NCBI GenBank assembly: GCA_017569285.1
Contig: CP069419.1
Coordinates: 744,001 to 808,000 of the forward strand
DNA from: Clostridiales bacterium
GTDB lineage: Bacteria; Bacillota; Clostridia; Christensenellales; Aristaeellaceae
Reading direction: 5' to 3'
Length of the DNA stretch: 64,000 bases
In this document: piece after piece, positions 1,104-31,394 of the stretch
Layout of the letters: every line of letters starts with the position of its first letter
Numbering within the stretch: the stretch's first letter is position 1
Made by a program: the position numbers and the translations under genes
The notes under the pieces: model-generated
The model's database searches: none
Told to the model about the DNA's origin: nothing
The model's input: the letters and a program-made list of their open reading frames with translations, nothing else

Positions 1104-2912
1104 ATGCATACCGCCTTTCTGATGGGGAATGAAGCCATCGCGATGGGGGCGCTGGCGGCCGGTGTCAACCTGGTCTGCGGCTATCCCGGCACCCCCTCGA
1201 CCGAGGTTCTGGAAACCGTTGCCAAAAACCGCGGCGATTCCGTCTATGTGGAATGGTCCGTCAATGAAAAAACCGCCATGGAAGTGGCGGCCGGTGCGTC
1301 CTATGCCGGCGCCCGGGCACTGGTCACCATGAAGCAGATGGGCCTCAACGTGGCGTCCGATCCGCTGATGTGCCTGGAGTATATCGGTGTAAAGGGCGGC
1401 CTGGTTGTCCTCGTTGCGGACGACCCCGGTCCCATCTCTTCCCAGACCGAACAGGACACCCGCAGCTTTGCCTCTTTCTCCAAGGTTCCTGTCTTCGATC
1501 CTTCCTCCGCGCAGGAGGCATACGATATGATGCGCGAGGCGTTCGCCTTCTCCGAGGAATACCACACCCCGGTTTTCCTCCGGCCGACCACCCGCGTTTC
1601 CCACGGCTATGCCTCCATCCGCGTGCTGGATGCGGAAGAGTACGAAATCCACACGCCGGACGGGTTTGTCCGGGATCCGGCCCGATGGGTCATCTTCCCG
1701 CGCTTTTCCTTTGCCAGCCACCGCAGGATTGAGGAGCGCAACACCGCGCTCTCCGATGTCCTGTCGGATTATGCCCCCAACCGGATTGAGCCCGGGGATC
1801 CGGCCTGCCGCAAAGGCATCGCCACCGGCGGTATCAGCTGGACGTATGTCATGGAAGCCCGGGAAAAGCTCGGCAAATGCCGGGTGCTGAAAGTCGCGAC
1901 GCCTTTCCCGTTCCCGGAAAAGAAAGCCGTTGAGTTCCTCTCCGGCCTGGATGAAGTGCTCTGTGTCGAGGAACTGGATCCCGTTATTGAGCGGGCACTC
2001 ATCTATGTCTGCGGAAAGTACGGCCTCTCTATCCGGATTCTCGGAAAGCAGACCGGCCATATCCCGCTGTCCGGCGAAAACACCCGGGACAGCGTGGCCG
2101 CCGCGGCTGCGGCTTTCCTGGATCTCCCGCTCCCTGCCGTTTCCGAATCCACTCCGCCTCCCCTGCCGGTCCGTCCGCCGGTGCTCTGCGCCGGCTGTCC
2201 GCACCGGGCCTCCTTCTATGCCGTCAAGCAGGCCATGAAGGGCCGGAAAACCATCTTTTGCGGGGATATCGGCTGTTACACACTCGGCAATGCCATGCCG
2301 CTGGACATGGTGGATACCTGCCTGTGCATGGGCGCCGGTCTCGGTATCGCCCAGGGCATCCGCCATCTGGAGGCGGATCGTACCTGCTTTGCGTTTGTCG
2401 GGGATTCCACATTCTTCGCCTCTGCCCTGCCCGGTGTCGTGAATGCCGTCTATAATCAGGCAGAATTCACTCTGGTGGTGCTGGACAATTCCACCACCGC
2501 GATGACCGGCCATCAGCCGCATCCCGGTACCGGCCGCACCATGATGGGCGAAGTGGTTGAAAAAGTCAGCATTGAAAATGTCCTGCGCGGCATCGGCGTC
2601 ACGGAAGTGGTCACCGTGGATCCGCTGGATCATGCCCGTGCTGTGGAAGCGGTCCGGGGCATTGCGGACCTTCCCGGCGTCAAGGCGGTTATTTTCCGCT
2701 CCCCCTGTATCGCGCTCTCAAAGCCGCAGGGGTGCCTGTCCGTGGATGCTGCAAAATGTATCGGCTGCAAAAAGTGTATCCGGGAGATCGGCTGCCCGGC
2801 CCTCAGCATATCCGGCGGCAAAGCGGTCATTGACCCGGCACAGTGCACCGGCTGCGGCCTTTGCGCGCAGCTCTGCCCGGTCCATGCAATGGAGGTGAGT
2901 TCCCGTGCGTAA
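1104..2912 (+). CDS. iorA: Indolepyruvate ferredoxin oxidoreductase, alpha subunit
   Basis: 602 aa, the usual length for the family. With IorB it oxidatively decarboxylates aryl-pyruvates (from Trp, Phe, Tyr) to aryl-acetyl-CoA and reduces ferredoxin, using thiamine pyrophosphate in the cytoplasm. The N-terminal pyruvate:ferredoxin-like domain begins at once (GYPGTPSTEV). The TPP-binding half includes CAGCPHR near residue 360 and GDIGCYTLG near 386. The C-terminus holds two 4Fe-4S motifs, CIGCKKCIREIGCP (about 551) and CTGCGLCAQLCP (about 579). The ATG follows a GAAGGAG ribosome site. The last 8 bases overlap iorB, so the pair is translationally coupled. PaaK next door suggests use of the arylacetate product. 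Confidence 0.95.
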   Translation: MHTAFLMGNEAIAMGALAAGVNLVCGYPGTPSTEVLETVAKNRGDSVYVEWSVNEKTAMEVAAGASYAGARALVTMKQMGLNVASDPLMCLEYIGVKGGLVVLVADDPGPISSQTEQDTRSFASFSKVPVFDPSSAQEAYDMMREAFAFSEEYHTPVFLRPTTRVSHGYASIRVLDAEEYEIHTPDGFVRDPARWVIFPRFSFASHRRIEERNTALSDVLSDYAPNRIEPGDPACRKGIATGGISWTYVMEAREKLGKCRVLKVATPFPFPEKKAVEFLSGLDEVLCVEELDPVIERALIYVCGKYGLSIRILGKQTGHIPLSGENTRDSVAAAAAAFLDLPLPAVSESTPPPLPVRPPVLCAGCPHRASFYAVKQAMKGRKTIFCGDIGCYTLGNAMPLDMVDTCLCMGAGLGIAQGIRHLEADRTCFAFVGDSTFFASALPGVVNAVYNQAEFTLVVLDNSTTAMTGHQPHPGTGRTMMGEVVEKVSIENVLRGIGVTEVVTVDPLDHARAVEAVRGIADLPGVKAVIFRSPCIALSKPQGCLSVDAAKCIGCKKCIREIGCPALSISGGKAVIDPAQCTGCGLCAQLCPVHAMEVSSRA

Positions 2913-3477
2913 GGATATTATCCTCTGCGGCGTCGGCGGCCAGGGAACCGTCCTGGCTTCCCGCCTCATTTCTGCCGCCGCCATGGCCCGAAGCATCCCC
3001 GTCATGTCCGCGGAAACCATCGGCATGGCGCAGCGGGGCGGCAGTGTGTTCAGCCATCTGCGCATGGGGGAAGGCATTTATTCCCCGATGATTGCCCGCG
3101 GTGAAGCAGACCTGATCATCGGCTTTGAACCCGGAGAGGCGGTCCGCCTCCTGCCCTTCCTGAAGCCGGGCGGACAGATGATCGTGTCCGACCGGGCCGT
3201 GATGCCGGTCACCGCTTCCCTGTCCGGTACCGAATACCAGGCGCAGGATATGCTGGATTACCTGTCCGCGCATGTGGCGGACCTCCGCGTGATCGACGCG
3301 GAACGTGCCATGCAGGAAATCGGCTCCCCGAAGGTGCTCAACCTGATCCTGCTGGGCGCTGCCGTCCGCGGCGGCGCGCTGGGGCTGGATGAAGCGGACC
3401 TGGAAGCCGCCGTCCGTTCCCGGATCCCGCAGAAATTCCATGAACTCAATCTCCGGGCGCTGGCCTGGGCAAAATAA
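2905..3477 (+). CDS. iorB: Indolepyruvate ferredoxin oxidoreductase, beta subunit
   Basis: 190 aa, a gamma-type pyruvate:ferredoxin oxidoreductase domain that is the obligate partner of IorA. The N-terminus shows the glycine-rich motif CGVGGQGTVLASRLIS, followed by SAETIGMAQRGGSV, both typical of this subunit. The GTG start lies inside the 3' end of iorA, and its ribosome site GGAGGTGAG is within iorA codons. It is followed 20 bases later by paaK, so the three genes probably form one transcript. Confidence 0.94.
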   Translation: MRKDIILCGVGGQGTVLASRLISAAAMARSIPVMSAETIGMAQRGGSVFSHLRMGEGIYSPMIARGEADLIIGFEPGEAVRLLPFLKPGGQMIVSDRAVMPVTASLSGTEYQAQDMLDYLSAHVADLRVIDAERAMQEIGSPKVLNLILLGAAVRGGALGLDEADLEAAVRSRIPQKFHELNLRALAWAK

Positions 3478-3497
3478 TACGAAAGAAGGAATCTGTC

Positions 3498-4733
3498 ATG
3501 CGTATTTCCGAATCCCAACTGCAGCTGGTCAACAGGCAGATTTCAGCACTGCGCGCTGCAAAGAATTTCTACGGCCGCAAGCTGGAAGATGCCGGCATCA
3601 CCGGCGTCTCCTCCCCAGAGGAGTTCGAAGCCCTGCCCTTCTCCGAGAAGAATGACCTGCGGGAAGCTTATCCCCTCGGCCTGATGACCGCGCCGGAGGA
3701 TCAGATCGTCCGCATCCATTCCTCCTCGGGTACCACCGGCCTTCCCGTCATCATTCCCTACACCGCGAAGGACGTGGAAGACTGGGCCATCATGTTTGCC
3801 CGCTGCTATGAGTACGCCGGCATCACGAACATGGACCGCATCCAGATTACACCCGGTTACGGTCTCTGGACGGCCGGCATCGGCTTCCAGGCCGGTGCGG
3901 AGCGTCTCGGCGCCATGGTCATCCCGATGGGCCCCGGCAACACGGAGAAGCAGCTGCAGATGATGCAGGACATGGGCTCCACCGTGCTCTGCTCCACCTC
4001 CTCCTATGCGCTGCTCCTCTCCGAGGAAATTGAGAAGCGCGGCCTGAAGGACAAGATCCACCTGAAGAAAGGTGTCATCGGGTCCGAACGCTGGAGTGAG
4101 AAAATGCGCACCCGCATTGCGGAGTCCCTGGGGATCGAACTGTACGATATCTACGGCCTCACGGAAATCTACGGCCCCGGCATCGGCATCAACTGCAAAT
4201 ACAATACCGGCATGCACTACTGGGATGACTACCTCTACATCGAGATCATCGATCCGCATACCCTGAAGCCCGTTCCGGACGGGGAAATGGGTGAGATCGT
4301 CATCACCACCCTGGTCAAGGAAGGGGCGCCGCTCATCCGTTACCGCACCCATGACCTGTCCCGCATCATCCCCGGCGAATGCCCCTGCGGCAGCAAACAT
4401 CCCCGCCTGGATACCATCATGGGCCGCACCGACGATATGATGAAGATCAAGGGCGTCAACGTCTTCCCGAGCCAGATCGAGGAAATCCTCCAGTCCTTCC
4501 CGGAGGCTTCCAGCGAATACCAGATCCGGATCTCCCACCTGGACGGCAAGGATACCATGCGGATCTATGTCGAAACCAACGGCTCCGTGGATTTCCAGGA
4601 CCTGGCCAACCGTATCGCCGCAAAGGTCAAGAGCGTCATCGGCTTCACCCCGATCGTCAAGGTCGTGGAAAACGGCCTGCTTCCCCGCAGTGAAAAGAAA
4701 ACCAAGCGCGTCATCGACGAGCGGTACGACTGA
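3498..4733 (+). CDS. paaK: Phenylacetate-CoA ligase family enzyme
   Basis: 411 aa, slightly short of typical PaaK (about 430). It belongs to the adenylate-forming enzymes that join an aryl-acetate to CoA using ATP. Motifs seen: phosphate-binding SSSGTTG at 75-81, YGLTEIYGPGIG in the middle, and RTDDMMKIKGVNVFP before the C-terminal swivel domain. Start ATG with GAAAGAAGG upstream. Beside iorAB it either activates aryl-acetates for assimilation or runs in reverse to gain ATP from aryl-acetyl-CoA; the sequence cannot tell the direction. A terminator follows 35 bases after the stop. Confidence 0.92.
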   Translation: MRISESQLQLVNRQISALRAAKNFYGRKLEDAGITGVSSPEEFEALPFSEKNDLREAYPLGLMTAPEDQIVRIHSSSGTTGLPVIIPYTAKDVEDWAIMFARCYEYAGITNMDRIQITPGYGLWTAGIGFQAGAERLGAMVIPMGPGNTEKQLQMMQDMGSTVLCSTSSYALLLSEEIEKRGLKDKIHLKKGVIGSERWSEKMRTRIAESLGIELYDIYGLTEIYGPGIGINCKYNTGMHYWDDYLYIEIIDPHTLKPVPDGEMGEIVITTLVKEGAPLIRYRTHDLSRIIPGECPCGSKHPRLDTIMGRTDDMMKIKGVNVFPSQIEEILQSFPEASSEYQIRISHLDGKDTMRIYVETNGSVDFQDLANRIAAKVKSVIGFTPIVKVVENGLLPRSEKKTKRVIDERYD

Positions 4734-20836: not shown

Positions 20837-21910
20837 TTACAGCACTTTTTCCGTTTCGCCGTCAAAGAAATACATGCTCTCCGCGGGAATCCAGAAGGTG
20901 ATCGTCCCGTCCGTTTCCGGTGTGTCATGGCTGTCCACCTTGAGGATGGCATGCTGTTCCCAGGATGTGATATACACGTTGGTATAGTCGCCCAGCATCT
21001 CGGTCAGTTCCACCTGGCATTCCATGCGGGCGGCGTTTTCCTTTTCCTGCAGCACAACCGCTTCAGGCCGGAAGCCGAATACGATATCCTTTCCTTCCAT
21101 GGCCGCGATGTCCGGCCGGAACGCCGCCAGGTCAATGCGCTGGTTTCCGAACACAATGGCGCCGTCTTTCACGGTTTCCCGTGCGAAGTTCATGGGCGGT
21201 TCGCCGATGAACCCGGCCACAAATACGTTCTCCGGCTTGAAATACAGCTCGTAGGGAGTCCCGACCTGCTGGATATATCCGTCCTTCATCACAACGATCC
21301 GATCCGCCAGCGTCATGGCCTCTGTCTGGTCATGGGTCACGTAGATCGTGGTGGAGCCGGTCTCCTGGTGGATCTGGGCGATCTCCGAGCGCATGGTCAC
21401 ACGCTGCTTCGCGTCCAGGTTGCTCAGCGGTTCGTCCATCAGGAAGATCCCGACCTTTCGGATCAGTGCCCGTCCGATCGCCACACGCTGGCGCTGGCCG
21501 CCGGAAAGCGCACGGGGAAGCCGGTCCAGGTATTCTGTCAGGCCCAGGATCTTCGCGGTCTTCTGCACCCGCTCCTCAATCACATCCTCATCCACGCCCT
21601 GCAGTGTCAGGCCGAATGCGATGTTGTCATATACAGTCATCTGGGGATACAGCGCATAGCTCTGGAATACCATGGCAACTTCCCGCTCCCGGGGGCCCTT
21701 TTCGTTGGCCCGCTCCCCGTTGATCAGGAATTCACCGCTGGAGATGTTCTCCAGTCCGGCGATCATCCGCAGCGTCGTGGACTTTCCGCATCCGGAAGGC
21801 CCGACGAAAACCACGAATTCACCCTCTTCGATATCCAGGTTGAAGTTGTGCACCGCGTGGAACCCGTTGGGGTAAATCTTGTTCACATTCTTCAGGGATA
21901 AAGTTGCCAC
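20837..21910 (-). CDS. Sugar ABC transporter ATPase, MsmK/UgpC type (copy 1)
   Basis: 357 aa from the GTG at 21910, picked because GAGGAGG lies 8 bases upstream; the frame is open further up but overlaps the GH105 gene. It hydrolyses ATP for CUT1 sugar importers. Walker A GPSGCGKST, signature LSGGQRQRVAIGRAL, Walker B IFLMDEP and an H-loop ahead of DQTEAMTLADR are all intact. The C-terminal TOBE/regulatory domain spans about 240-357. It is the last gene of the importer operon and one of two such ATPases there (see 24329). Spacing to the GH105 stop is only 5 bases. Confidence 0.92.
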   Translation of the reverse strand: MATLSLKNVNKIYPNGFHAVHNFNLDIEEGEFVVFVGPSGCGKSTTLRMIAGLENISSGEFLINGERANEKGPREREVAMVFQSYALYPQMTVYDNIAFGLTLQGVDEDVIEERVQKTAKILGLTEYLDRLPRALSGGQRQRVAIGRALIRKVGIFLMDEPLSNLDAKQRVTMRSEIAQIHQETGSTTIYVTHDQTEAMTLADRIVVMKDGYIQQVGTPYELYFKPENVFVAGFIGEPPMNFARETVKDGAIVFGNQRIDLAAFRPDIAAMEGKDIVFGFRPEAVVLQEKENAARMECQVELTEMLGDYTNVYITSWEQHAILKVDSHDTPETDGTITFWIPAESMYFFDGETEKVL

Positions 21911-21915
21911 GAGGG

Positions 21916-23067
21916 TTACCTCCTCCTCATTTCTGTATAGCACATCAGCAGCGGAGCAATGCCTTTTGCCTCGTTCCGCACAATCGGTTCAGAAAGATAG
22001 TAGGCCACGGAGCCGTCCCGCCGCCGGTTGTTTTCCGGTCCCAGTCCGGCCACCAGGCAGATATTGTTCAGGTTCAGGTTCCCGTCCGAGAAAGAGAGGT
22101 TCGTCCGGACAATCCCCTCGAACGTTTTCTGCCCCTGGTCTCCCGTGGCCGGCGGAAGGATTCCCAGCCGGGCTCCCTTCAGCATCGCGTAGGCAGCCAT
22201 GGAGCTTCCGCTGGTCTCCAGGTAGTTTCCTTCCGCGTCCGGCCGGTCCACCACCTGGTAATACATCCCGGTCTCTTCGTCCGCAAACGGCAGGATATCC
22301 CGTGCCAGGTCGGACAGCGTTTCCCTCAGCAGTCCGGTTTCACTTTCCGGAATGATTTCGCACAGGTCGGCCAGGGCCGCGAAGAACCAGCCGATCGCCC
22401 GCAGCCAGAAGCTCCGGCTCAGCCCCGTTTCCGGATCCGCCCAAAAGGCCTTCCGGCTGGCGTCATATCCGTGGTAGTACAGTCCGGTTTTCCGGTCGCG
22501 CATTCGTTCCCGGACCACCGAAACCTGCTTCAGGATATCGGAATAGTCCCCGTTTCCGAAATGCTTCTCGTACAGGGCGGCAAAGGGCTGCGCCATATAG
22601 ATGCCGTCCAGCCATACCTGGTTCGGATAAATCTGCTTGTGCCACCAGGAGCCTTCTTCGGTCCGGGGCTGGCTGTCCAGCGCTTTCCGGAGGAAGTCCG
22701 CCGCGCGGCGGTATTTTTCCTTGCCTGTGGTGTCATACAGTTCAAACAGCACCCGGCCTTCATTGATATCGTCCAGCATATGCTCCTCCGTCCGGAAGGT
22801 CTGGATTGAACCGTCCTCCAGGATAAAGGAATCGATGAACGACTCCGCAAAGTCAAAATAGCGCTTTTCCCCGGTAATCTGCGCCATGTTGAGCAGGGCG
22901 GTCATCATGCACCCGTCCACATAGTTCCATTTCACGGGTTTGTTGGCCCTGTGCTGTTCCACATTCCAGGCCGTATATTCTGGGGAGGATTCGGCCACCA
23001 GCCGGTCAATATACCGGTCCAGGTCCGTGTATGCTGAATCTGCCAATCGGAACGTCCTTCCTTTCAT
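21916..23067 (-). CDS. Unsaturated uronyl hydrolase, GH105 (YteR-like)
   Basis: 383 aa. It removes the 4,5-unsaturated uronic acid from the non-reducing end of pectin or rhamnogalacturonan oligosaccharides made by lyases, by hydration. The (alpha/alpha)6 fold motifs KWNYVDGCMMTALL and YPNQVWLDGIYMAQPF (catalytic Asp) are present. No signal peptide, so cytoplasmic. The ATG at 23067 lacks a good ribosome site, while a TTG at 23046 has GGAAGG 9 bases upstream and may be the real start. The product feeds KduI-KduD encoded at 31.4-33.3 kb. Confidence 0.9.
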   Translation of the reverse strand: MKGRTFRLADSAYTDLDRYIDRLVAESSPEYTAWNVEQHRANKPVKWNYVDGCMMTALLNMAQITGEKRYFDFAESFIDSFILEDGSIQTFRTEEHMLDDINEGRVLFELYDTTGKEKYRRAADFLRKALDSQPRTEEGSWWHKQIYPNQVWLDGIYMAQPFAALYEKHFGNGDYSDILKQVSVVRERMRDRKTGLYYHGYDASRKAFWADPETGLSRSFWLRAIGWFFAALADLCEIIPESETGLLRETLSDLARDILPFADEETGMYYQVVDRPDAEGNYLETSGSSMAAYAMLKGARLGILPPATGDQGQKTFEGIVRTNLSFSDGNLNLNNICLVAGLGPENNRRRDGSVAYYLSEPIVRNEAKGIAPLLMCYTEMRRR

Positions 23068-23098
23068 GGTCCGTAATACCGGTCTGTTTCCGGCATGT

Positions 23099-23755
23099 TC
23101 AGGAACCGGCGGATATCTTCTGCTTCGCGTCTGCCAGGATCCGTCCGCCCAGGCGCTTGCTGCCCAGGAACAGCAGGTCCCAGGCCGTCACAAAAATGCC
23201 GAACAGGATCGGTTCCACTCCGATGGCGGCTCCGGCCTGTTCACTTCCTCCGGCCGCCAGCAGGTTGATCCCGTTGTATGTCATGATCGTGCAGGCAGTC
23301 AGCAGGATTGCGTATACTACGTCCAGCGGCAGGAAATACAGCTTCTTTCCCGGAAACATCATCCACCGGTCATACGCTCCGGGAGTCTTTGCGATAAACC
23401 GGTAAATATTATTCGTCATCAGGTTGGTTGCCAGTCCCAGGGTGATTCCGATCACCAGCAGCTGGTCCCACGGGTTGATGGCGATCGTGCTGATGCCCCA
23501 GATGAAGAAATAACAGATCATGCCGGCAATCCACAGCTTGATCAGGATCGCCTTCACCCAGTCGGACAGCTTGATTTTCGGTCCGCTGCGGTACTTCCTG
23601 AGCTCTGCCGCAGGTACCGGAGGTGAGTTTTCCTCGTCCGCCGTCACCAGGTCCTCAACAGCCTGTTTCTTCAGCCGGTAGTAAGCCGAGGTGTCCTTTT
23701 CCCCTTCCGGGTTCCGCGGCATCCGCTTTTGGATTTCAGGATGATTCTTCCCCAT
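23099..23755 (-). CDS. Membrane protein of unknown family in importer operon (219 aa)
   Basis: Not recognised. 219 aa from the ATG at 23755 (7 bases after the previous stop; GAGGA upstream). A charged cytoplasmic N-terminal part (1-60) is followed by about four membrane helices, roughly 65-88, 93-112, 138-160 and 178-198, and a short basic tail. Notable stretches: TNLMTNNIYRFIAKTPGAY between helices 2 and 3, and FGIFVTAWDLLFLG. No ABC permease EAA loop and no transport signature was seen. Its place between sugar-uptake genes suggests an accessory role in importing or sensing pectin fragments; this is inference only. Confidence 0.75.
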   Translation of the reverse strand: MGKNHPEIQKRMPRNPEGEKDTSAYYRLKKQAVEDLVTADEENSPPVPAAELRKYRSGPKIKLSDWVKAILIKLWIAGMICYFFIWGISTIAINPWDQLLVIGITLGLATNLMTNNIYRFIAKTPGAYDRWMMFPGKKLYFLPLDVVYAILLTACTIMTYNGINLLAAGGSEQAGAAIGVEPILFGIFVTAWDLLFLGSKRLGGRILADAKQKISAGS

Positions 23756-23762
23756 ATGTCCG

Positions 23763-24332
23763 TCACGCGTCCTCGCCGCTGATGTCAATGGTTCCCATAT
23801 CCTTGTTTTCTGCCACTTCAATACTGGTGTTGATCTTCCGCAGCAGTTTGGAATACACGGGCAGAAGTGCGAACAGCGCGGCGCCGATAATCAGCAGGAT
23901 CCGGTGGACAGCCACCACATGCTGGGTAACCGCCACAAACGCGTTTTTCCCTGTGGGCACAATCGGGCTCTCCGCGCGCGTCAGCGCTGCCACGATCCGG
24001 CCGTCATAGTAATAATCGCAGAATATCAGGATCGCAAGCATCACAAACGTCAGGATCACCATCGGTACAACCGCTTTTTTCCGGTGGGGAAACGCGTTCA
24101 GGAAGCAGACCAGGCTCAGTGTGGAAAGAAGCATCACGGCGAAGGATGACAGGCCCATGTGCGGTCCGTTGATCAGTGCCGTGGTATTGGCGATGGAGCT
24201 GAGATTAAAGGAATAGTAAACAAACGCAAGCGCCAGCACTGCCAGGGCAATCATCTGGGGCTTCCTTTTCAGTGCCACCAGGCGTTTTCTGAAAAACTCC
24301 CTGATCCGGGAAGGCTGCTTTGCCATGGTCAT
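23763..24332 (-). CDS. Membrane protein of unknown family in importer operon (189 aa)
   Basis: Not recognised. 189 aa with four predicted helices (about 25-42, 59-78, 85-104 and 142-159), a basic N-terminus (RIREFFRKRLVALKRK) and an acidic cytoplasmic tail. The ATG at 24332 overlaps the stop of the ATPase gene by 4 bases; a second ATG two codons later has better spacing to GGAGGGG. The helix 3-4 loop holds YYYDGRIVAALTRAESP. No known motif. It is coupled in translation to the ATPase at 24329, which argues for a joint function. Confidence 0.75.
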   Translation of the reverse strand: MTMAKQPSRIREFFRKRLVALKRKPQMIALAVLALAFVYYSFNLSSIANTTALINGPHMGLSSFAVMLLSTLSLVCFLNAFPHRKKAVVPMVILTFVMLAILIFCDYYYDGRIVAALTRAESPIVPTGKNAFVAVTQHVVAVHRILLIIGAALFALLPVYSKLLRKINTSIEVAENKDMGTIDISGEDA

Positions 24333-25402
24333 TTCCCCTCCTTCCGGATAGCGCGGGTGGTTTCGGGATCAAAGAACAGTTTCCTTGTGAAATGCACCGG
24401 TACAAGGTCGCCGTTTTTGTAGTTCATCCAGTTGCGGAATTTGGCGGTAATCCGCACACCATCCGCAATCGTCCCGTGCACCAGCGTATTCATGCCCAGG
24501 TTCTCATTCGAGCTGACCCGGATATTCAGGTTGCCACCTTCTGCGATGTACTCGGGCCGCACACCCAGGATCACGGGTTTCCCGTTCCGGGGCGCCAACA
24601 GCGCCTGCTCATCTGCCTCCAGGGGGACTTCAAATCCCTTCCCTTTCAGCTTTCCGTCTTCAAAAACAGTATCCAGCATGTTCATCGGCGGCAGGCCGAT
24701 AAACGTTGCCACAAAGGTGTTGTCCGGTGAGTCATACAGTTCCAGCGGCGTGCCAATCTGCTGGACGTGGCCCATGCTCATGCATACAATCCGGTCCGCC
24801 AGGGTCAGCGCTTCCGTCTGGTCATGCGTCACATACAGGATCGTCGCGTTCAGCCGCTTGTGCAGCAGCAGGATTTCCCGCCGGGTCGCCCCGCGCAGCT
24901 TCGCGTCCAGGTTGCTCAGCGGTTCATCAAACAGGAACACCTTCGGGCTGCGGACAATCGCGCGGCCCATGGCCACCCGCTGCCGCTGTCCGCCGGAGAG
25001 CTGGGACGGCTTCTTGTTCAGCTGGGCGGTCAGGTCCAGGATTTCCGCGGCCGCCATGACCTTTTTATGGATCACGTTCGGGTTTTCCCGGCGCAGTGTC
25101 AGGGAGAACGCCATGTTTTCATAAATCGTCATATGGCCGTACAGGGCGTAGTTCTGGAACACCATCGCCATATCCCGGTCCTTGGCCGGGGCCGCGGTGA
25201 TGTCCCGGCCGTCCAACAGCAGTTTCCCGTGGGAAATGTCCTCCAGTCCGGCTACCATGCGCAGCGTGGTGGATTTTCCGCATCCGGAAGGACCGACCAG
25301 CACGATCAGCTCGCCGTCTGCCACATCCAGGTTGAAATCATAAACCGCCTGGACATTGTTGTCGTAGATTTTATCCAGATGCTGCAGTTGAAGCTCTGCC
25401 AT
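24329..25402 (-). CDS. Sugar ABC transporter ATPase, MsmK/UgpC type (copy 2)
   Basis: 357 aa. Walker A GPSGCGKST, signature LSGGQRQRVAMGRAI, Walker B VFLFDEP and the DQTEALTLADRI region are intact, with a C-terminal regulatory domain. It is the same family as copy 1 (20837) but clearly diverged. Either the importer uses a heterodimer of the two, or each serves a different permease pair. ATG with GGAGGAAAT upstream. It overlaps the next membrane gene by 4 bases. Confidence 0.92.
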   Translation of the reverse strand: MAELQLQHLDKIYDNNVQAVYDFNLDVADGELIVLVGPSGCGKSTTLRMVAGLEDISHGKLLLDGRDITAAPAKDRDMAMVFQNYALYGHMTIYENMAFSLTLRRENPNVIHKKVMAAAEILDLTAQLNKKPSQLSGGQRQRVAMGRAIVRSPKVFLFDEPLSNLDAKLRGATRREILLLHKRLNATILYVTHDQTEALTLADRIVCMSMGHVQQIGTPLELYDSPDNTFVATFIGLPPMNMLDTVFEDGKLKGKGFEVPLEADEQALLAPRNGKPVILGVRPEYIAEGGNLNIRVSSNENLGMNTLVHGTIADGVRITAKFRNWMNYKNGDLVPVHFTRKLFFDPETTRAIRKEGK

Positions 25403-25414
25403 TTCATTTCCTCC

Positions 25415-25882
25415 TTACGCCTGCAAAGAGGCAAGATGCGCGGACAGGGCCCGGCTTTTCTTCAGGTTGATCACCGCACCCGCGAACAGGCAGGCGGCGG
25501 ACAGGGCCAGGCAGACTACTGTAAAGATAAACTGGGCGTTTCCCATCACCGGTTCGCTGTTGATAATCGTCCGGTGGGCATCCATGGGGATGATGAAGAT
25601 CCGCGCGATCTGGAGGATGCCCAGTACAATCATCACCCAGGAATAGACTGTTTGGTACTTCTTGACACCCTCCGAGCACAGGAATGCCGCCAGCAGGAAA
25701 ACCAGGTTGTAGATGATGGAGCCCCCGATGGTCGCTGTATAGTAATAGGTCCCCACATCTGATTTATAGATACTGATGAAGAACAGAACGTCAAAAACAA
25801 TCGCCAGCAGCGCCAGCCGGGAGGAGGCTGTGTTCTTTGTATACCTCATTCGGTCAAGCTGTACGGAACGGTCATCGTTCAT
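25415..25882 (-). CDS. Membrane protein of unknown family in importer operon (155 aa)
   Basis: Not recognised. 155 aa with four predicted helices (about 23-38, 53-69, 79-98 and 119-139). Short polar loops with KSDVGTYYYTATIGG after helix 1. The start overlaps the stop of the 197-aa gene by 4 bases (ATGA), so the two are translated together. No signature of a permease, channel or enzyme. Possible accessory or signalling subunit of the importer (inference). Confidence 0.72.
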   Translation of the reverse strand: MNDDRSVQLDRMRYTKNTASSRLALLAIVFDVLFFISIYKSDVGTYYYTATIGGSIIYNLVFLLAAFLCSEGVKKYQTVYSWVMIVLGILQIARIFIIPMDAHRTIINSEPVMGNAQFIFTVVCLALSAACLFAGAVINLKKSRALSAHLASLQA

Positions 25883-26472
25883 GCTGACACCGCCTTTCCC
25901 GAGGAGGCAAGAAGTTCTTTCTCTCCCCGCATCATTCTCTTCTTCCAGATAAAGTTCACAATCAGGAGAATGGCCGTGGCAACGGCCAGGATACAGACAA
26001 CATAATGAATATCAAACCAGAAGGTGGAATCGGTATAGGTGCCGTACCGGGAAAGCCGTTTTTCCAGTGCGGCGAAATCAACCGTGGAAAGGTACTGGCT
26101 TCTGAAGGCGCTCACCTGGATGTGGCACCATACAGCCATAAAAAGTTCAGCCGCGGCATTGATGAAGGTGGCGGCCGCGTTGCCGGCGTAGTATTTCCGG
26201 CGTGAATGCGTATTGGTAATAAACAGCAGGCAGGCCAGTACGATCATGCCGATGGAAGCCCGCAGCAGCGTGCGGTTGAAGGGCTGCATGTCGTAATAGA
26301 TCCGGGCGCCGGACACCTTGGCGGAATCCAGGTTGTTCGGATTGGGAATCATGGAATACAGCGTGTCATAAAGGTCTGTCATGATCCCCAGTGAATAAAC
26401 AAAGAACAGCGCGCCGGCAATAAGTGCGGCAAAGCACACAATTTTCTGGAAGGCAACCTGTTTCTTATACAT
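25879..26472 (-). CDS. Membrane protein of unknown family in importer operon (197 aa)
   Basis: Not recognised. 197 aa with predicted helices at about 10-31, 70-90, 98-116 and 155-177. A loop of about 40 residues after helix 1 (SMIPNPNNLDSAKVSG) probably faces outside, and another lies between helices 3 and 4 (STVDFAALEKRLSRYG). The basic C-terminal tail (WKKRMMRGEKE) is probably cytoplasmic. Directly downstream of the solute-binding protein gene, with a strong hairpin in between. With the 155-aa partner it may form a two-subunit membrane unit (inference). Confidence 0.72.
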   Translation of the reverse strand: MYKKQVAFQKIVCFAALIAGALFFVYSLGIMTDLYDTLYSMIPNPNNLDSAKVSGARIYYDMQPFNRTLLRASIGMIVLACLLFITNTHSRRKYYAGNAAATFINAAAELFMAVWCHIQVSAFRSQYLSTVDFAALEKRLSRYGTYTDSTFWFDIHYVVCILAVATAILLIVNFIWKKRMMRGEKELLASSGKAVSA

Positions 26473-26502
26473 AATTGATCCTTGCCCCTTCAGAAAGGGC
26501 CC

Positions 26503-26530
26503 GGCGCCCGCGCCGCTCAGCGCGGGCGCC
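26503..26530 (-). other. Strong hairpin downstream of the solute-binding protein gene
   Basis: A 10-bp all-GC stem (26503-26512 with 26521-26530), with no clear T-run after it on the minus strand. The position fits a 3' stabiliser or partial terminator that raises binding-protein mRNA over the downstream genes. Confidence 0.6.
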
Positions 26531-26568
26531 CGGTCCTGGTCTAAATCACATAACAGCCGAAGCAGTCA

Positions 26569-28632
26569 TTACTTTGATGCGTTGTAGTAATCCTTCAGGC
26601 GCATCCAGGCATCGTTCTTCAGTTCAGTGTAGGTGAATCCGTACCAGTCATTTTCCACAACTGCAGCCTGTTCCGCGGCGGTCAGTCCGTTCGGGATGCC
26701 GTTCACGACGATATCGTCAAACAGGTTGAAGTCGCCGCTGAAGTTGGAGCTCAGGTCGCTCAGCTTGTTCAGCTCGTCGGTCTCGGTGGTGTACTGCGGC
26801 AGCGTGGTGGGCACGGAGGTGTACCAGGGATTCTCGGTCAGCGCCAGCTCCGGATGCTTGATGGTTCCGAGGGCGATGGCGGCGGACAGCTTCCCGGCGC
26901 CTTCCTTGCCGACCTCATGCGTGCACTGGTATTCGAAGGCCTGGCTCTTGATGAAGGACAGCGTGGAGCCCAGGTAGCGGCGGGCAAAGTTGGTGTAGTT
27001 GCCGTTTGCCAGCGCCCACAGGTTCTCCAGGGTGCCGTCAGCGACCACGGGCATTTCCTTGCCGTTGAAGTTGAAGGTTTCGTAGCTGCCGTCATCCTTG
27101 GTCTTGATGAAGGCGTCCGGACCGTAACTCATCAGGATCTGGCCCTTTTCGGAATAGGTGTAGTCAATCAGGGCGAGCAGGGCATTCAGCTTGGCTTCAT
27201 CGTCGCCGACACCCTTCTTGGAAATCGCCCAGCAGTTGCCGTTCTTCACAGAACGCCAGCTCTCAGTGAAGCGCATGTACACGCCTTCCTCGTTGGTCCC
27301 GTCAAACCAGCGGGAAACGGGGATCATAATGGCCATGTACTTCTCACCTTCCTGCAGGGAGGTGTTCAGGATGGTCTGGGTCTGGTTGTAGTCGTAGGAC
27401 ATGAAGCCCAGGTCATCCGGAATGTAGTTCTTGGTGGAGGAAGTGGCGGCCTTGGTCATGAAGTCGGCAGAGATCAGGCCTTCCATCGCGATGTCGTGCA
27501 TCCGCGCGGCAGCGGCATAGGCGTCTTCACTCTGGCGGGCATCATGCAGGTCTCCGTCGGTTCCGACATACAGGAAATCCTGGCGGGATTCATAGCCGCG
27601 TACGCCGAAGAGCAGTCCGCCCAGGCGGTGGATGTCATAGCGGCGGCCGGCGGAATTCTCCTCGCGGGAGAACAGGCCCTGGATCAGGTCTGTGCCGTTC
27701 AGGGACTGGGGGTTGGTAACAACGCAGCGCAGCAGGGCGACCATTTCGTCGGCATCCCAACAGGCGTCGTATCCGCAGAACAGGTTGGACCGGGTGGCTC
27801 CGTAGTATCCATTATAGGTCTTGTCGATATACTCACGCAGCATATTGACCGCTTCAACGCCGCTCATGACGCCCTTTTCATTCATCTTCGCAACGATGTT
27901 GCCGTAGGCGTCATAGTCCTTGGTCAGGGTCTGGACACCGCTGCCGTCCGCGGTGGGCGTTTCGATCTCGATCTTGCCTTCGGTGGGCATGAAGGGCTGG
28001 TAAACGGGAGCAGCCGTATCCTTGCAGGCAGCGGCTTCAAAAGCGCCTTCGCCGTCCAGCAGCTTCTGCAGGTAGTCCACACGCATCAGGGGCATCTTTT
28101 CGATGTCGTTCACACCGTCAAAGTACGGAGCAAAGTAGAACGCGCCGGTATCGGTGTTCGCGGTGATGGACAGCCGGACAATGGGGTTCTCGTCCAGGTA
28201 CTTCATCACGTTCGGGATCTTGTCGGTGTATTCCTCCAGGTTGACCAGGCTGCCGGTTTCGCCGTACGCGTTGACGGTTGCGGACGGGCCGAGCACCATG
28301 TCAACGTTTTCCAGCTGTTCTTTCCAGTAGTCAAATTCCTTGGCGTCGTTGTTGCCCTGGTAGGGGGTTCCGTCCACGATCACGTTGTTGCCGGTGATCT
28401 CAGACAGGATTTTTTCCATCTCCACCCAGGTGGGCTTCAGGTCGCCGGTGTGGTAGGTGTTTCCGTCGGCCAGGGTAATTCCTTCGCCGGCAATATCCGG
28501 GCTGAAGGCAAGACCGGTGTTCGCGTTGTTATAGCCGACGGCCATACGCAACGTAACATCCTCAGCGCTTGCGGCTGCCGCCAGTGTCAGCAGCATCGCA
28601 CATGCCAGGACCAGGGATAAAAGTTTCTTCAT
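26569..28632 (-). CDS. Large extracellular solute-binding protein of the pectin importer
   Basis: 687 aa, longer than the usual LplA/YtcQ-type binding proteins (about 500). Signal peptide MKKLLSLVLACAMLLTLAAAASA, apparently cut before ED by signal peptidase I. The expected lipobox cysteine is missing at the end of the h-region, and the only early Cys (residue 11) is in a poor context. The mature part shows binding-protein features (WVEMEKILSEITGNNV, DLGFMSYDYNQTQTI). It would capture oligogalacturonides for the permeases at 28726 and 29631. How it stays at the membrane is not explained by sequence. Confidence 0.88.
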   Translation of the reverse strand: MKKLLSLVLACAMLLTLAAAASAEDVTLRMAVGYNNANTGLAFSPDIAGEGITLADGNTYHTGDLKPTWVEMEKILSEITGNNVIVDGTPYQGNNDAKEFDYWKEQLENVDMVLGPSATVNAYGETGSLVNLEEYTDKIPNVMKYLDENPIVRLSITANTDTGAFYFAPYFDGVNDIEKMPLMRVDYLQKLLDGEGAFEAAACKDTAAPVYQPFMPTEGKIEIETPTADGSGVQTLTKDYDAYGNIVAKMNEKGVMSGVEAVNMLREYIDKTYNGYYGATRSNLFCGYDACWDADEMVALLRCVVTNPQSLNGTDLIQGLFSREENSAGRRYDIHRLGGLLFGVRGYESRQDFLYVGTDGDLHDARQSEDAYAAAARMHDIAMEGLISADFMTKAATSSTKNYIPDDLGFMSYDYNQTQTILNTSLQEGEKYMAIMIPVSRWFDGTNEEGVYMRFTESWRSVKNGNCWAISKKGVGDDEAKLNALLALIDYTYSEKGQILMSYGPDAFIKTKDDGSYETFNFNGKEMPVVADGTLENLWALANGNYTNFARRYLGSTLSFIKSQAFEYQCTHEVGKEGAGKLSAAIALGTIKHPELALTENPWYTSVPTTLPQYTTETDELNKLSDLSSNFSGDFNLFDDIVVNGIPNGLTAAEQAAVVENDWYGFTYTELKNDAWMRLKDYYNASK

Positions 28633-28725
28633 ATGGGGGTGCCTCCTTCAAATAATAATATGGGTTTTTATTTCCTTCACACCGGGTTTCATACGCCCCG
28701 GTGAAGAATAACCAAAGATGCCGGA

Positions 28726-29616
28726 TTACTCCTTTACGCCGCCGGCGTTGGTGCCTTTGGCGAAATATTTCTGGATAAACGGATAGATGATCAGGATCGG
28801 GATAATGGAACAGACGATCAGTGCGAAGATTACCGAATCCGGCGCGTAGTTCGCGGTCCAGCCGCCCAGCTGCTCCAGGTCTGTATACTGTTCCAGCTGG
28901 TTTCGGATAAACACCTGCAGGGGCTGCTCATTGGCGTTGGAGATCATCTGCCGTGCCCAGAAGTAACCGTTCCAGCGGCTGATGGCGAAGAACAGCGCCA
29001 CAGTCGCAATGGTGGATTTGCTCATCGGGATGAACACCTTGGTCAGCACCTGCATTTCCGTCGCTCCGTCCACGATGGCTGCCTCCTCAATTTCGGAGGG
29101 AACATTTTCAAAGGCATTGCGCAGCAGGATAATGTTCATGGCTGCCATACCCATGGCGATAACGACCAGCCATTTGTCATCCATGATTCCCACGGAGTTG
29201 AAAACGGATTTCGTGGCCAGGTAGTTCAGGTACTGCGGAACAATACCTGCGGAGAACCACATCGTGAATACCAGGAAGAAGTTGAACGCCTTCCGGAAAA
29301 GCAGCCGTTTCTTGCTCAGTGCGTAACCGCCGAGGATTGCGATGCCAAGGGACCAGATCGTTCCGTAGATCGTCAGGAACAGCGTATTGGAATAGGCGTT
29401 CCAGAACTGGTTGTTGCCGAACATGGACGCGAAGGCATCAAACTGCACGTTTTTCGGAAACAGGATCAGTTCCTGGTATTCCACCGCGTGCCGTCCGCTG
29501 ATGGAAGCCGATACCGCGTAGAGGAACGGATACAGGCACATCAGCGCGAACATCGTCAGGAACAGGTAGCTGAAGATTTTGAATATCAGCTCGGAGATTT
29601 CAAGTCTTCTTTTCAT
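28726..29616 (-). CDS. Carbohydrate ABC permease, LplC/YtcP type
   Basis: 296 aa, six membrane helices. The cytoplasmic ATPase-contact (EAA) loop reads IEEAAIVDGATEMQVLTKVF. The N-terminus IFSYLFLTMFALMCLYPFLYAV and the YFAKGTNAGGVKE tail are typical of the LplC/YtcP group, which goes with binding proteins of the LplA type. It pairs with the permease at 29631 (14 bases upstream) to form the channel for the binding protein at 26569. Confidence 0.93.
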   Translation of the reverse strand: MKRRLEISELIFKIFSYLFLTMFALMCLYPFLYAVSASISGRHAVEYQELILFPKNVQFDAFASMFGNNQFWNAYSNTLFLTIYGTIWSLGIAILGGYALSKKRLLFRKAFNFFLVFTMWFSAGIVPQYLNYLATKSVFNSVGIMDDKWLVVIAMGMAAMNIILLRNAFENVPSEIEEAAIVDGATEMQVLTKVFIPMSKSTIATVALFFAISRWNGYFWARQMISNANEQPLQVFIRNQLEQYTDLEQLGGWTANYAPDSVIFALIVCSIIPILIIYPFIQKYFAKGTNAGGVKE

Positions 29617-29630
29617 TCGTCAAAACCTCC

Positions 29631-30704
29631 TTAATACAGGCTCACATTGGAGGCCTTGCGGGCAATGGTGTTTGCGCCGATCACCAGCAGCATGCCCACC
29701 ACGTTGTTCAGCATTTCCGCCGTGGAAGCGAGACCGCTCTGGTTCTGGGTCGTCTTGATCCGCCAGGCAAAGGTGGAAATGACTTCGGAGGTCTGGTAGA
29801 TTTGCACCCGCTGCTCATTAAGGAGCAGGACCTTTTCATATCCGATGCTCAGCATGGAGCCGATCCGGGTAATCAGCATGATTACGATGGTGCTCAGGAT
29901 GCCGGGCAGCACCACATACCGCATCTGCGCCCATTTGTTGGCGCCGTCGATCTGGGCCGCCTCGTAACTGGTCGGTGAAATAGCGATGATCGCTGCGAAG
30001 AATACGATGCTGTCGTATCCGGCCGTCTCCCATATGCCGCTCACCTGGTAGATTGCGCGGAAATAAGCCGGATCATTCAGCAGGCCGGCCTGCGCGGTTT
30101 CCCGCGAGATCAGGCCCAGTGAAGCCAGCAGCTGGGAAAGGATTCCGGGAGGTGCCCCCGTTGTGGAGCTGCCCTGCTGGATCAGCATGATCACCAGGGA
30201 GGTCATCACAACGGTGGACATGAATTTGGGTAGATAGGTGAATACCTGCAGGCCGCTGCGCAGCAGGTCGGACTTGACTTCGTTGAAGAACAGCGCCAGC
30301 AGGATCGGCATCGGGAATCCGAAGAGGAGCCCGTAGAAGCTCAGCAGGAAGGTGTTCCGCATCGCCCGCCAGAATTCGTTGCTCAGGTTTGTGTATGTTC
30401 CGGATCCGATCAGCAGCGCCTTGATGTTGGAGAAGCCCAGGAAGTTCTGGTCCGCCACAGGCTTCACCACGTCGGTCACCTTGAAGGCGCCGAGCAGCTC
30501 ATACATCGGCATATAGCGCCAGAAAAGGAAGACCAGGAGCATGGGGACCAGCATCAGATAGAGACGCCAGTCCTTCAGGACCGTGCGTCCGATGTGAAGC
30601 CAGTTATGCTTCTCAACGTCATCCCGAACCGCCTGTTCGGGATCCTCCCGCCAGGTACCGGCCGCCTCGTCGTAAATCAGGTAATCCCCTGCCTGACGCT
30701 TCAT
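29631..30704 (-). CDS. Carbohydrate ABC permease, LplB/YteP type
   Basis: 357 aa from the ATG at 30704, set because GGAGG is 7 bases upstream; a longer open frame upstream has no such site. A cytoplasmic N-terminal extension of about 50 residues (DYLIYDEAAGTWREDPEQA) precedes six helices. The EAA loop is YEAAQIDGANKWAQMRYVVL. The C-terminus (GANTIARKASNVSLY) is typical of this permease group. It works with the 28726 permease. The N-terminal extension is longer than in the common family and could be a contact site for an extra subunit (inference). Confidence 0.93.
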   Translation of the reverse strand: MKRQAGDYLIYDEAAGTWREDPEQAVRDDVEKHNWLHIGRTVLKDWRLYLMLVPMLLVFLFWRYMPMYELLGAFKVTDVVKPVADQNFLGFSNIKALLIGSGTYTNLSNEFWRAMRNTFLLSFYGLLFGFPMPILLALFFNEVKSDLLRSGLQVFTYLPKFMSTVVMTSLVIMLIQQGSSTTGAPPGILSQLLASLGLISRETAQAGLLNDPAYFRAIYQVSGIWETAGYDSIVFFAAIIAISPTSYEAAQIDGANKWAQMRYVVLPGILSTIVIMLITRIGSMLSIGYEKVLLLNEQRVQIYQTSEVISTFAWRIKTTQNQSGLASTAEMLNNVVGMLLVIGANTIARKASNVSLY

Positions 30705-30747
30705 ACGCATTCCTCCGTTCAGGGTCTTGCTTCGTTTCACCGGGGTT

Positions 30748-31317
30748 TCAGTGGTTTTCCTCTTCCGCAATCCGCCGTACGTAATGCGGCTGGTCTTCCA
30801 GCACGCCGTCTGGCCGGGATGCAATCCAGATGATCAGAGCTGTAAACAGGTAGGTAATGACATCTGTGGTGATGTACAGCGGAAGCGCCTCCGGCGGCGT
30901 TCCCGTAATCAGGGCCGTCAGCGCGCGTCCCGCATGCATGGCCAGCACCGTCAGGAGTCCGAAAAGGAAATCCCGCAGGATATTCCCGTGCAGTGATTCC
31001 CATCCCCATTTCCGCAGGAGCGGCCATACCGCCAGTGCAGCCAGGTTCCCGATCCCGTAAATCAGGAACTGGGTACCGGTCCCCTTCTGCACCAGTACGG
31101 TCACAATTCCGCCGAGCACCGCGTGCAGCGCGCACCAGGGTCCCCACCGGACCATCACGATCGCGGTCACTGCCGGCACCACGGAAACAGTCCATGCCGC
31201 CGCGGAAAACCATTCAGTGGCCGCGCGGATAATCAGTGTCTCGGTCAGCATCATGATTACCGCAAATATTGATAAATCAATAATCCTGTACTGTCCGAGA
31301 GTCCTTCGGGTCTGCAC
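30748..31317 (-). CDS. Small membrane protein, possibly ECF S-component-like
   Basis: 189 aa from the GTG at 31317, chosen because GGAGG is 7 bases upstream and the promoter is close. Five or six hydrophobic segments: IIDLSIFAVIMMLTETLII, VSVVPAVTAIVMV, ALHAVLGGIVTVLV, FLIYGIGNLAAL, FLFGLLTVLAMHA and TDVITYLFTALIIWIA. Size and layout recall substrate-binding S-components of ECF importers, but no family signature was certain. First gene of the importer operon; a cytoplasmic tail of about 25 charged residues. Alternative: an unknown integral membrane protein. Confidence 0.6.
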   Translation of the reverse strand: MQTRRTLGQYRIIDLSIFAVIMMLTETLIIRAATEWFSAAAWTVSVVPAVTAIVMVRWGPWCALHAVLGGIVTVLVQKGTGTQFLIYGIGNLAALAVWPLLRKWGWESLHGNILRDFLFGLLTVLAMHAGRALTALITGTPPEALPLYITTDVITYLFTALIIWIASRPDGVLEDQPHYVRRIAEEENH

Positions 31318-31365: not shown

Positions 31366-31394
31366 ATTATACATCAATTTGTTTTGTTTTGCAA
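31366..31394 (-). promoter_or_regulatory. Promoter of the pectin importer operon
   Basis: Minus strand: TTGCAA (31389-31394), a 17-base spacer and TATAAT (31366-31371). About 40 bases of leader precede the GTG at 31317. Downstream, no strong terminator is seen before 20834. Confidence 0.8.

Follow-up and report, generated by a model that had tools for sequence, protein, structure and literature searches.

We describe an operon in a 64,000-nucleotide (nt) window of a Clostridiales genome (family Aristaeellaceae; contig CP069419.1, positions 744,001 to 808,000), all genes of which lie on the minus strand. The genes of an ATP-binding cassette (ABC) importer for sugars, namely the permeases LplB and LplC, a substrate-binding protein (SBP) and an ATPase (ATP1), are here accompanied by genes for five membrane proteins, S and M1 to M4, and for a second ATPase (ATP2). 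Type I importers are described in PMC7658222 as two permeases, two ATPases and one binding protein. A sequence-only reading of the window had noted an importer operon with four small four-helix proteins and two ATPases, and the open reading frames (ORFs) are present as it described. Its lengths for M1, M2 and M3 (197, 155 and 189 amino acids, aa) stand, M4 has 218 aa rather than 219 (ATG at 23755), and S, the first gene of the operon, was missing from its list. The features are as follows, in window coordinates.

31366-31394, minus strand: promoter-like site TTGCAA-17-TATAAT upstream of S, a consensus match only
30748-31317, minus strand: S, membrane protein of 189 aa, GTG start, first gene
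29631-30704, minus strand: LplB-type permease with EAA loop, its ATG start at 30704 picked by spacing from GGAGGA
28726-29616, minus strand: LplC-type permease (AlgM2-like) with EAA loop, profile match to AlgM2 at E 7.2e-85
26569-28632, minus strand: SBP of the AlgQ kind, 687 aa, about 100 extra residues between two matched parts
26473-26568, minus strand: stem-loop in the SBP-M1 gap, probably an internal terminator or processing site
25879-26472, minus strand: M1, 197 aa, four transmembrane (TM) helices, 4-nt overlap with M2
25415-25882, minus strand: M2, 155 aa, four TM helices
24329-25402, minus strand: ATP1, MsmX-like ATPase, catalytic motifs intact
23763-24332, minus strand: M3, 189 aa, four TM helices, 4-nt overlap with ATP1
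23099-23755, minus strand: M4, membrane protein of 218 aa whose N-terminal region, about 65 residues long, is hydrophilic
21916-23067, minus strand: GH105/GH88 unsaturated uronyl hydrolase (PF07470, E 5.2e-86), a variable cargo gene
20837-21910, minus strand: ATP2, the second ATPase, GTG start at 21910, catalytic motifs intact

Gene order and co-occurrence across genomes

An M1 scan of genome contigs returned 119 relatives, and the 80 best of these served as loci. These belonged to Bacillota (rumen and gut Clostridia, Oscillospiraceae, Lachnospiraceae, Erysipelotrichaceae) and to Spirochaetota, including the isolate Bullifex porci. A locus was considered eligible for a given partner if its contig reached far enough to show it. 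Among the eligible loci of these 80, ten transport genes, five of them for unnamed membrane families, recurred in a fixed order without exception. S was present in 59/59 loci (21 of the 80 being too short), LplB in 63/63 (17 too short), LplC in 66/66 (14), SBP in 69/69 (11), M2 in 79/79 (1), ATP1 in 75/75 (5), M3 in 74/74 (6), M4 in 72/72 (8) and ATP2 in 61/61 (19). The common order was S-LplB-LplC-SBP-M1-M2-ATP1-M3-M4-ATP2, and the full eight-gene core from LplB to M4 was colinear in 63/63 loci. S stood upstream of LplB in all 59 loci holding both genes, as did ATP2 downstream of M4 in all 69. The tie of M1-M4 to an importer of the oligogalacturonide type, proposed by the sequence-only reading, is borne out by the SBP, LplC and LplB counts, and the neighbourhood check which it named turned up no eligible locus without a sugar importer.

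The enzyme gene is less regular. M4 and ATP2 were both present in 69 loci; GH105 lay between them in 53 of these, beyond ATP2 in seven, and was absent from the fetched stretch in nine. In the spirochaete loci, ATP2 started 1-2 nt past M4 in all seven with both genes, the other two of the nine being cut. Since the position and presence of GH105 vary, we regard the enzyme as cargo and the ten transport genes as the unit; the adjoining M4 and ATP2 of the spirochaetes likewise delimit a unit of ten genes without the enzyme.

As the loci had been chosen by M1, the association was also tested by independent genome searches. Among 200 genomes of the family, M1 matched 57 and M4 matched 59, with 56 in common, as counted by hand from the match lists. 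Among 341 genomes of the class, strong SBP matches (E <1e-40) and strong M1 matches fell in the same four genomes, while a further 24 SBP-positive and three M1-positive genomes showed weak partial matches. S was found in three of the four strongly positive genomes. Loss of S from the fourth (G851) was discounted, its contig of 5,083 bases ending inside LplB. An M1 search of plasmids gave no match, and no description of the cassette was found among the papers listed by searches of the open-licence PMC literature, as judged by titles and the beginnings of abstracts.

Two divergent cassettes extend these observations. The first, L132 (genome G778), carries S, LplB and LplC, as well as M1-M4 at 28-36% identity to those of the window, ATP1 at 72%, and both GH28 and GH105. 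The contig also encodes a relative of ATP2 with 64% identity by BLAST, located 5.6 kilobases (kb) from S and beside a gene which by eye is UxaB-like, and this ruled out L132 as a cassette with a lone ATPase. The SBP ORF of L132 (9773-12739) encodes a protein of 989 aa that begins with a lipobox-like stretch (MVGCTPK) and has three separate SBP-profile matches. The second, L097 (genome G423, of the window's genus), has LplB at 43%, LplC at 53%, an SBP of 683 aa at 27%, M1 at 27% and M4 at 30%. Its gene order is that of the window, with overlapping starts at M1/M2, ATPase/M3 and M3/M4. In the place of GH105, positions 8839-12721 of L097 hold a DUF4962 protein followed by a heparinase II/III-type protein, which suggest another uronate polymer as substrate. 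As the plan is kept in a cassette with other enzymes, the M genes seem to be part of a wider importer class and not of pectin uptake alone.

Ordinary LplB/LplC pairs served as controls, and were screened with all ORFs of at least 80 aa in the 12-18 kb around each pair. No M1-M4 or S match was found near five such pairs of the same genome (two in L098, one each in L099, L100 and L101), nor near two pairs of other genomes (L133 and L134). The ordinary operon L133 (G902) encodes a DUF624 protein (2895-3614; PF04854, E 1.9e-16), which amounts to a second kind of unknown membrane companion.

In 69/69 loci, the SBP-M1 gap contains a local stem at least as stable as -15 kcal/mol, with z below -2 in 62 of the 69, compared with 12 of 39 for the LplC-SBP gap. 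The 4-nt overlaps pointed out by the sequence-only reading, at 25879-25882 (M1/M2) and 24329-24332 (ATP1/M3), are present and recur in relatives (59/79 and 25/74 loci, respectively, counts which depend on our choice of start codons). Such overlaps are as in translational coupling. In Clostridia, stem-loops that follow SBP genes work as internal terminators, according to PMC9045158, and for this reason the products of the upstream genes, and of the SBP gene in particular, probably outnumber M1-M4 and the ATPases. The fixed product ratio once proposed for the operon would be possible on either side of the stem-loop, but not across it.

Upstream of S, the promoter-like site was the best-scoring in the region, where 12 sites were found against 6.1 expected. 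The surroundings of the operon contain pectin catabolism genes, namely KduI, GH28, pectinesterase, altronate dehydratase and an AraC-type regulator, as well as an SDR (short-chain dehydrogenase/reductase) gene, assigned to KduD by position. From GH105, GH28, KduI, pectinesterase and altronate dehydratase nearby, we infer that the operon serves the transport of uronate oligosaccharides.

The core importer and its two ATPases

The LplB-LplC gap measured 11-215 nt in all 61 loci with both genes complete. A loose pattern for the EAA loop was matched by 61/61 LplB and 62/65 LplC proteins, and a stricter one by 59/61 and 12/65. Both permeases are of the AlgM/Lpl kind; of the two, it was the LplC profile that was compared with the PDB, where it matched AlgM2.

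For the window SBP, no Pfam match was found at E<=1. The SBP profile matched AlgQ1/AlgQ2 at E 8.6e-23 with L097 in the profile and at 1.4e-10 without it. The match to AlgQ1 falls into two stretches separated by 143 residues, as against 42 in AlgQ1 itself; the SBP is about 200 residues larger than AlgQ, about 100 of these lying between the matched parts. By a simple pattern, a lipobox was absent from the window SBP and from 40 of 69 cassette SBPs, and present in 29 of 69 (4/69 with poorer start codons). Two SBPs of ordinary importers in the window's genome (L098, 5357-7180; L099, 3832-5412) were by eye likewise without a lipobox, with ends such as ASA-E. Such absence is odd for a presumed single-membrane bacterium, and the SBP of L101 has one (LTACSGG).

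A degenerate ATPase was rejected as an explanation, the catalytic motifs being intact in ATP1 and ATP2 apart from conservative variants. A strict motif pattern failed in 7/64 ATP2 proteins, with GSSGCGKST in six and AISGGQ in one, and in 1/77 ATP1 proteins, a 329-aa form without the H-loop motif. The ATP1 profile matched AlgS at E 2.7e-95. ATP2 is of the MalK/MsmX kind, scoring 444 bits with the UgpC model (over its cut-off) and possessing OB/TOBE domains, while the energy-coupling factor (ECF) ATPase models gave 164-167 bits against cut-offs of 315-330.

The two differ at the residues by which MsmX contacts its permeases, given as D77, R104, E110 and K154 in PMC7658222. ATP1 retains D77 in 77/77 proteins, R104 in 77/77 and K154 in 76/77, with V or I replacing E110, and the ATPase of L097 and the core ATPase of L132 follow this pattern at D, R and K. 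ATP2 has D77, R104 and K154 in 0/64 and E110 in 4/64. The substitutions are E, G, K or Q at 77, Q, E, A, M or H at 104, and V, I, Y or E at 110, with G at 154 in 63/64 and E in the remaining protein; in the window's ATP2, all four of these transmembrane-domain contact residues are replaced. Judged by these residues, ATP2 is a different, specialised ATPase from ATP1, and it can lie apart from the other genes. The two may well form a dedicated heterodimer. In a tree of ATPases, Spirochaetota rows lay among Bacillota rows inside both the ATP1 and the ATP2 clade. Only these two clades were used, on account of the tree's long branches.

The membrane proteins M1 to M4 and S

Each of M1-M4 has about four hydrophobic segments. 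That M1-M4 belong to no known family, as the sequence-only reading held, was confirmed, and extends to S: for these five window proteins, all Pfam and NCBIfam matches at E<=1 fell below the curated cut-offs. A further scan of relatives with Pfam, covering 39-49 members per protein at E<=0.1, returned scattered weak matches, the commonest being DUF6057 in 12/49 M3 proteins (best E 0.0023). The relatives of M1, M2 and M3 otherwise gave single weak matches, the best being 7tm_7 (E 7.7e-05) in 1/49 M1 proteins, and among the families examined for these three (the first 25 of 43, 32 and 39, respectively) none was common to most members.

Several identities were considered and set aside. Firstly, the EAA pattern occurred in 0 of 80 M1, 79 M2, 74 M3 and 72 M4 proteins, and in no S protein, so that M1-M4 and S are not spare channel halves. 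Secondly, a DUF624 identity was rejected for M1-M4 and S, none of which matched PF04854 at E<=1; the DUF624 protein of L133, noted above, was the positive control. Thirdly, a duplicated pair found no support: hhalign probabilities were at most 2.9% for M1/M3, M2/M4 and the other four pairings. The sequence-only reading had divided the operon into two units of a membrane pair plus an ATPase, a division which fails on these six comparisons, on the position of ATP1 between M2 and M3, and on ATP2 being an ATPase of another, specialised sort. Its further suggestions, an added transmembrane layer or a role in sensing, may still hold.

Folds were predicted with AlphaFold2, as single chains, for S and M1. 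The M1 model consists of four long helices (mean pLDDT, the model's confidence score, 90), for which a fold search returned generic four-helix bundles, the best at E 0.05 and none at E<=0.001; the M1 profile had no PDB match at E<=10. With regions set by hand, the loop between helices 2 and 3 was the best conserved region of M1 and of M3 (mean majority residue 84% and 82%), while in M2 and M4 this was a helix (82% and 72%). The conserved loops of the M proteins may represent a contact surface.

The S model (mean pLDDT 91) resembles the S-components of ECF importers in its predicted fold. Three of these were the top three of 350,542 chains in a Foldseek search, all with weak E-values: ThiT 4tkr (TM-score 0.60, probability 0.99, E 0.27), PanT 4rfs (TM-score 0.57, probability 0.97, E 0.63) and ThiT 4muu (TM-score 0.42). 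None of the 79 matches reached E<=0.001. The window's S had no Pfam match at E<=1, to PF12822 or to any other family, and PF12822 was not among the three families matched by any of 39 members at E<=0.1. ECF S-components carry an AxxxA motif in helix 1; within the first 40 residues, this occurred in only 15/59 S proteins. A relationship to EMC4 was proposed by a weak PDB profile match (E 0.0024) which spans only 58 positions, and was taken as chance. Four genes of the genome (G000:C1 649767, 2107334, 1574646 and 2653614) exceed the PF12822 cut-off and encode ordinary ECF S-components, and comparison of the S profile with these was uninformative, as true S genes fail against each other as single sequences.

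Assembly and function of the cassette

On balance, we favour the view, suggested by the association of the genes, that a type I ABC importer is enlarged here by M1-M4, and probably by S, as obligate subunits. The cassette would then be dedicated to importing unsaturated uronate oligosaccharides, in this case probably derived from pectin, on the plan of AlgM1M2SS-AlgQ2. LplB and LplC would form the channel, the unlike pair ATP1 and ATP2 would drive it, and the enlarged SBP would deliver the sugar. M1-M4, with S in most members, would be obligate extra membrane subunits assembled around the LplB/LplC core, contacting the permeases or ATPases at the inner face and the enlarged SBP at the outer one. 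They may help the SBP to dock and, for oligosaccharides that are long and charged, may gate the channel or make it more stable; GH105 and the nearby Kdu/Uxa enzymes would then degrade the imported product.

A number of observations weigh against this view. Taking the best 80 of 119 loci by similarity to M1 favours orthologous operons. The cassette is also rare and patchy, M1 being found in one of 398 genomes of the phylum (the window's own) and in 57 of 200 of the family. In L097, the M2 match is weak (26%, E 0.002) and M3 was placed by position only, with no significant similarity; one ATPase was present and the 24 kb read showed no S, so neither ATP2 nor S is universal. An enlarged SBP is not special, as L133, an ordinary operon lacking M1-M4, encodes one of 972 aa. 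Ordinary ATPases vary at the MsmX sites too (D, K, E, Q in L133; D, K, E, K in L002), and some drift is thus normal. The M genes and the permease genes lie on opposite sides of the stem-loop. Finally, the alginate importer and its Streptobacillus relative consist, in the description of PMC5717064, of two transmembrane domains, two ATPases and an SBP only, from which it follows that, on that account, the extras are unnecessary for basic transport.

A more elaborate form of the proposal would have LplB/LplC seated on an ATP1/ATP2 heterodimer and ringed by four unrelated four-helix subunits and a protein of S-component fold, S and the M ring acting as a second binding and gating layer for long polyanionic sugars. 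We advance this only tentatively and think it improbable as it stands; if true, such a ten-protein importer would combine the type I design with that of ECF importers.

The strongest competing explanation, to which we give a minor share of credence, is that M1-M4 form a separate membrane module which serves the importer in assembly, retention or sensing, for example by holding the SBP at the cell surface or by reporting uptake to a regulator. The placing of the M genes behind the stem-loop, away from the permease genes, is in its favour, as are the five ordinary LplB/LplC pairs, which indicate that such a core can work alone. The SBPs without a lipobox, that of the window and 40/69 of its relatives, might also call for a holder, the SBP in the window's lineage lacking a lipid anchor. 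However, the 29/69 cassette SBPs with a lipobox retain M1-M4 nonetheless, some SBPs of ordinary importers in the same genome (L098, L099) are also without one by eye, and ATP1 sits between M2 and M3, its end overlapping M3 in 25/74 loci.

It is less likely still that the operon encodes two importers, one of LplB, LplC, SBP and ATP1, and another of S, an M scaffold and ATP2. The likeness of the predicted S fold to ThiT and PanT, the divergence of ATP2 from ATP1 at three MsmX contact sites, and the four other ECF S-type genes of the genome would agree with this. Yet no M protein of the window matches EcfT/CbiQ or another Pfam family, ATP2 is of the MalK/MsmX kind and under the ECF ATPase cut-offs, AxxxA occurs in only 15/59 S proteins, and in L097 the M genes are retained alongside a single ATPase, no S being seen. 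It seems very improbable that the importer is an ordinary one and M1-M4 unrelated genes carried along in a co-transferred cluster: the Spirochaetota rows inside the Bacillota ATP1 and ATP2 clades fit horizontal transfer as a block, but within that block the enzyme genes vary from locus to locus, unlike the ten constant transport genes, and the M proteins are kept at 26-36% identity and in the same order in divergent cassettes (M3 of L097 by position).

Returning to the enlarged importer, its closest known counterparts are AlgM1-AlgM2/AlgS-AlgS with AlgQ1/AlgQ2 of Sphingomonas sp. A1 and Smon0120-0123 of Streptobacillus, which it resembles in LplC, the SBP, ATP1 and the inferred uronate substrate. 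The alginate importer has an ATPase homodimer (PMC5717064), in contrast to the two different ATPases encoded here, and the cassette differs further in its larger SBP and five additional conserved membrane genes. The YtcQP-YteP and YesOPQ importers of Bacillus subtilis draw on MsmX, which is common to several importers, whereas here two ATPases are encoded in or near the operon, and ATP2, unlike that MsmX, is without the contact residues. In B. subtilis, mutants without ytcQ and yesOPQ are impaired in using polygalacturonan, according to PMC5730181. The B. subtilis loci carry DUF624 proteins (YesV, YteU). Proteins of this YesV type are likewise small membrane proteins near an LplB/LplC importer, as in L133, from which the window's M1-M4 and S differ in having no match to the family at E<=1. 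The ECF S-components ThiT and PanT are the nearest solved structures to the S model, at weak Foldseek E-values, but S is unlike them in having no PF12822 match and no conserved AxxxA, and in that its gene stands among those of a type I importer.

Five further membrane families thus accompany this importer, in Bacillota and Spirochaetota living in animal guts, as regularly as its permeases do. Such conserved extras suggest that the type I plan is extendable, perhaps for long charged sugars, and the two ATPases suggest that an MsmX-type ATPase has, in nature, been divided into two specialised partners. Five unnamed families gain a testable role, one of relevance to the use of pectin in ruminants and other plant eaters.

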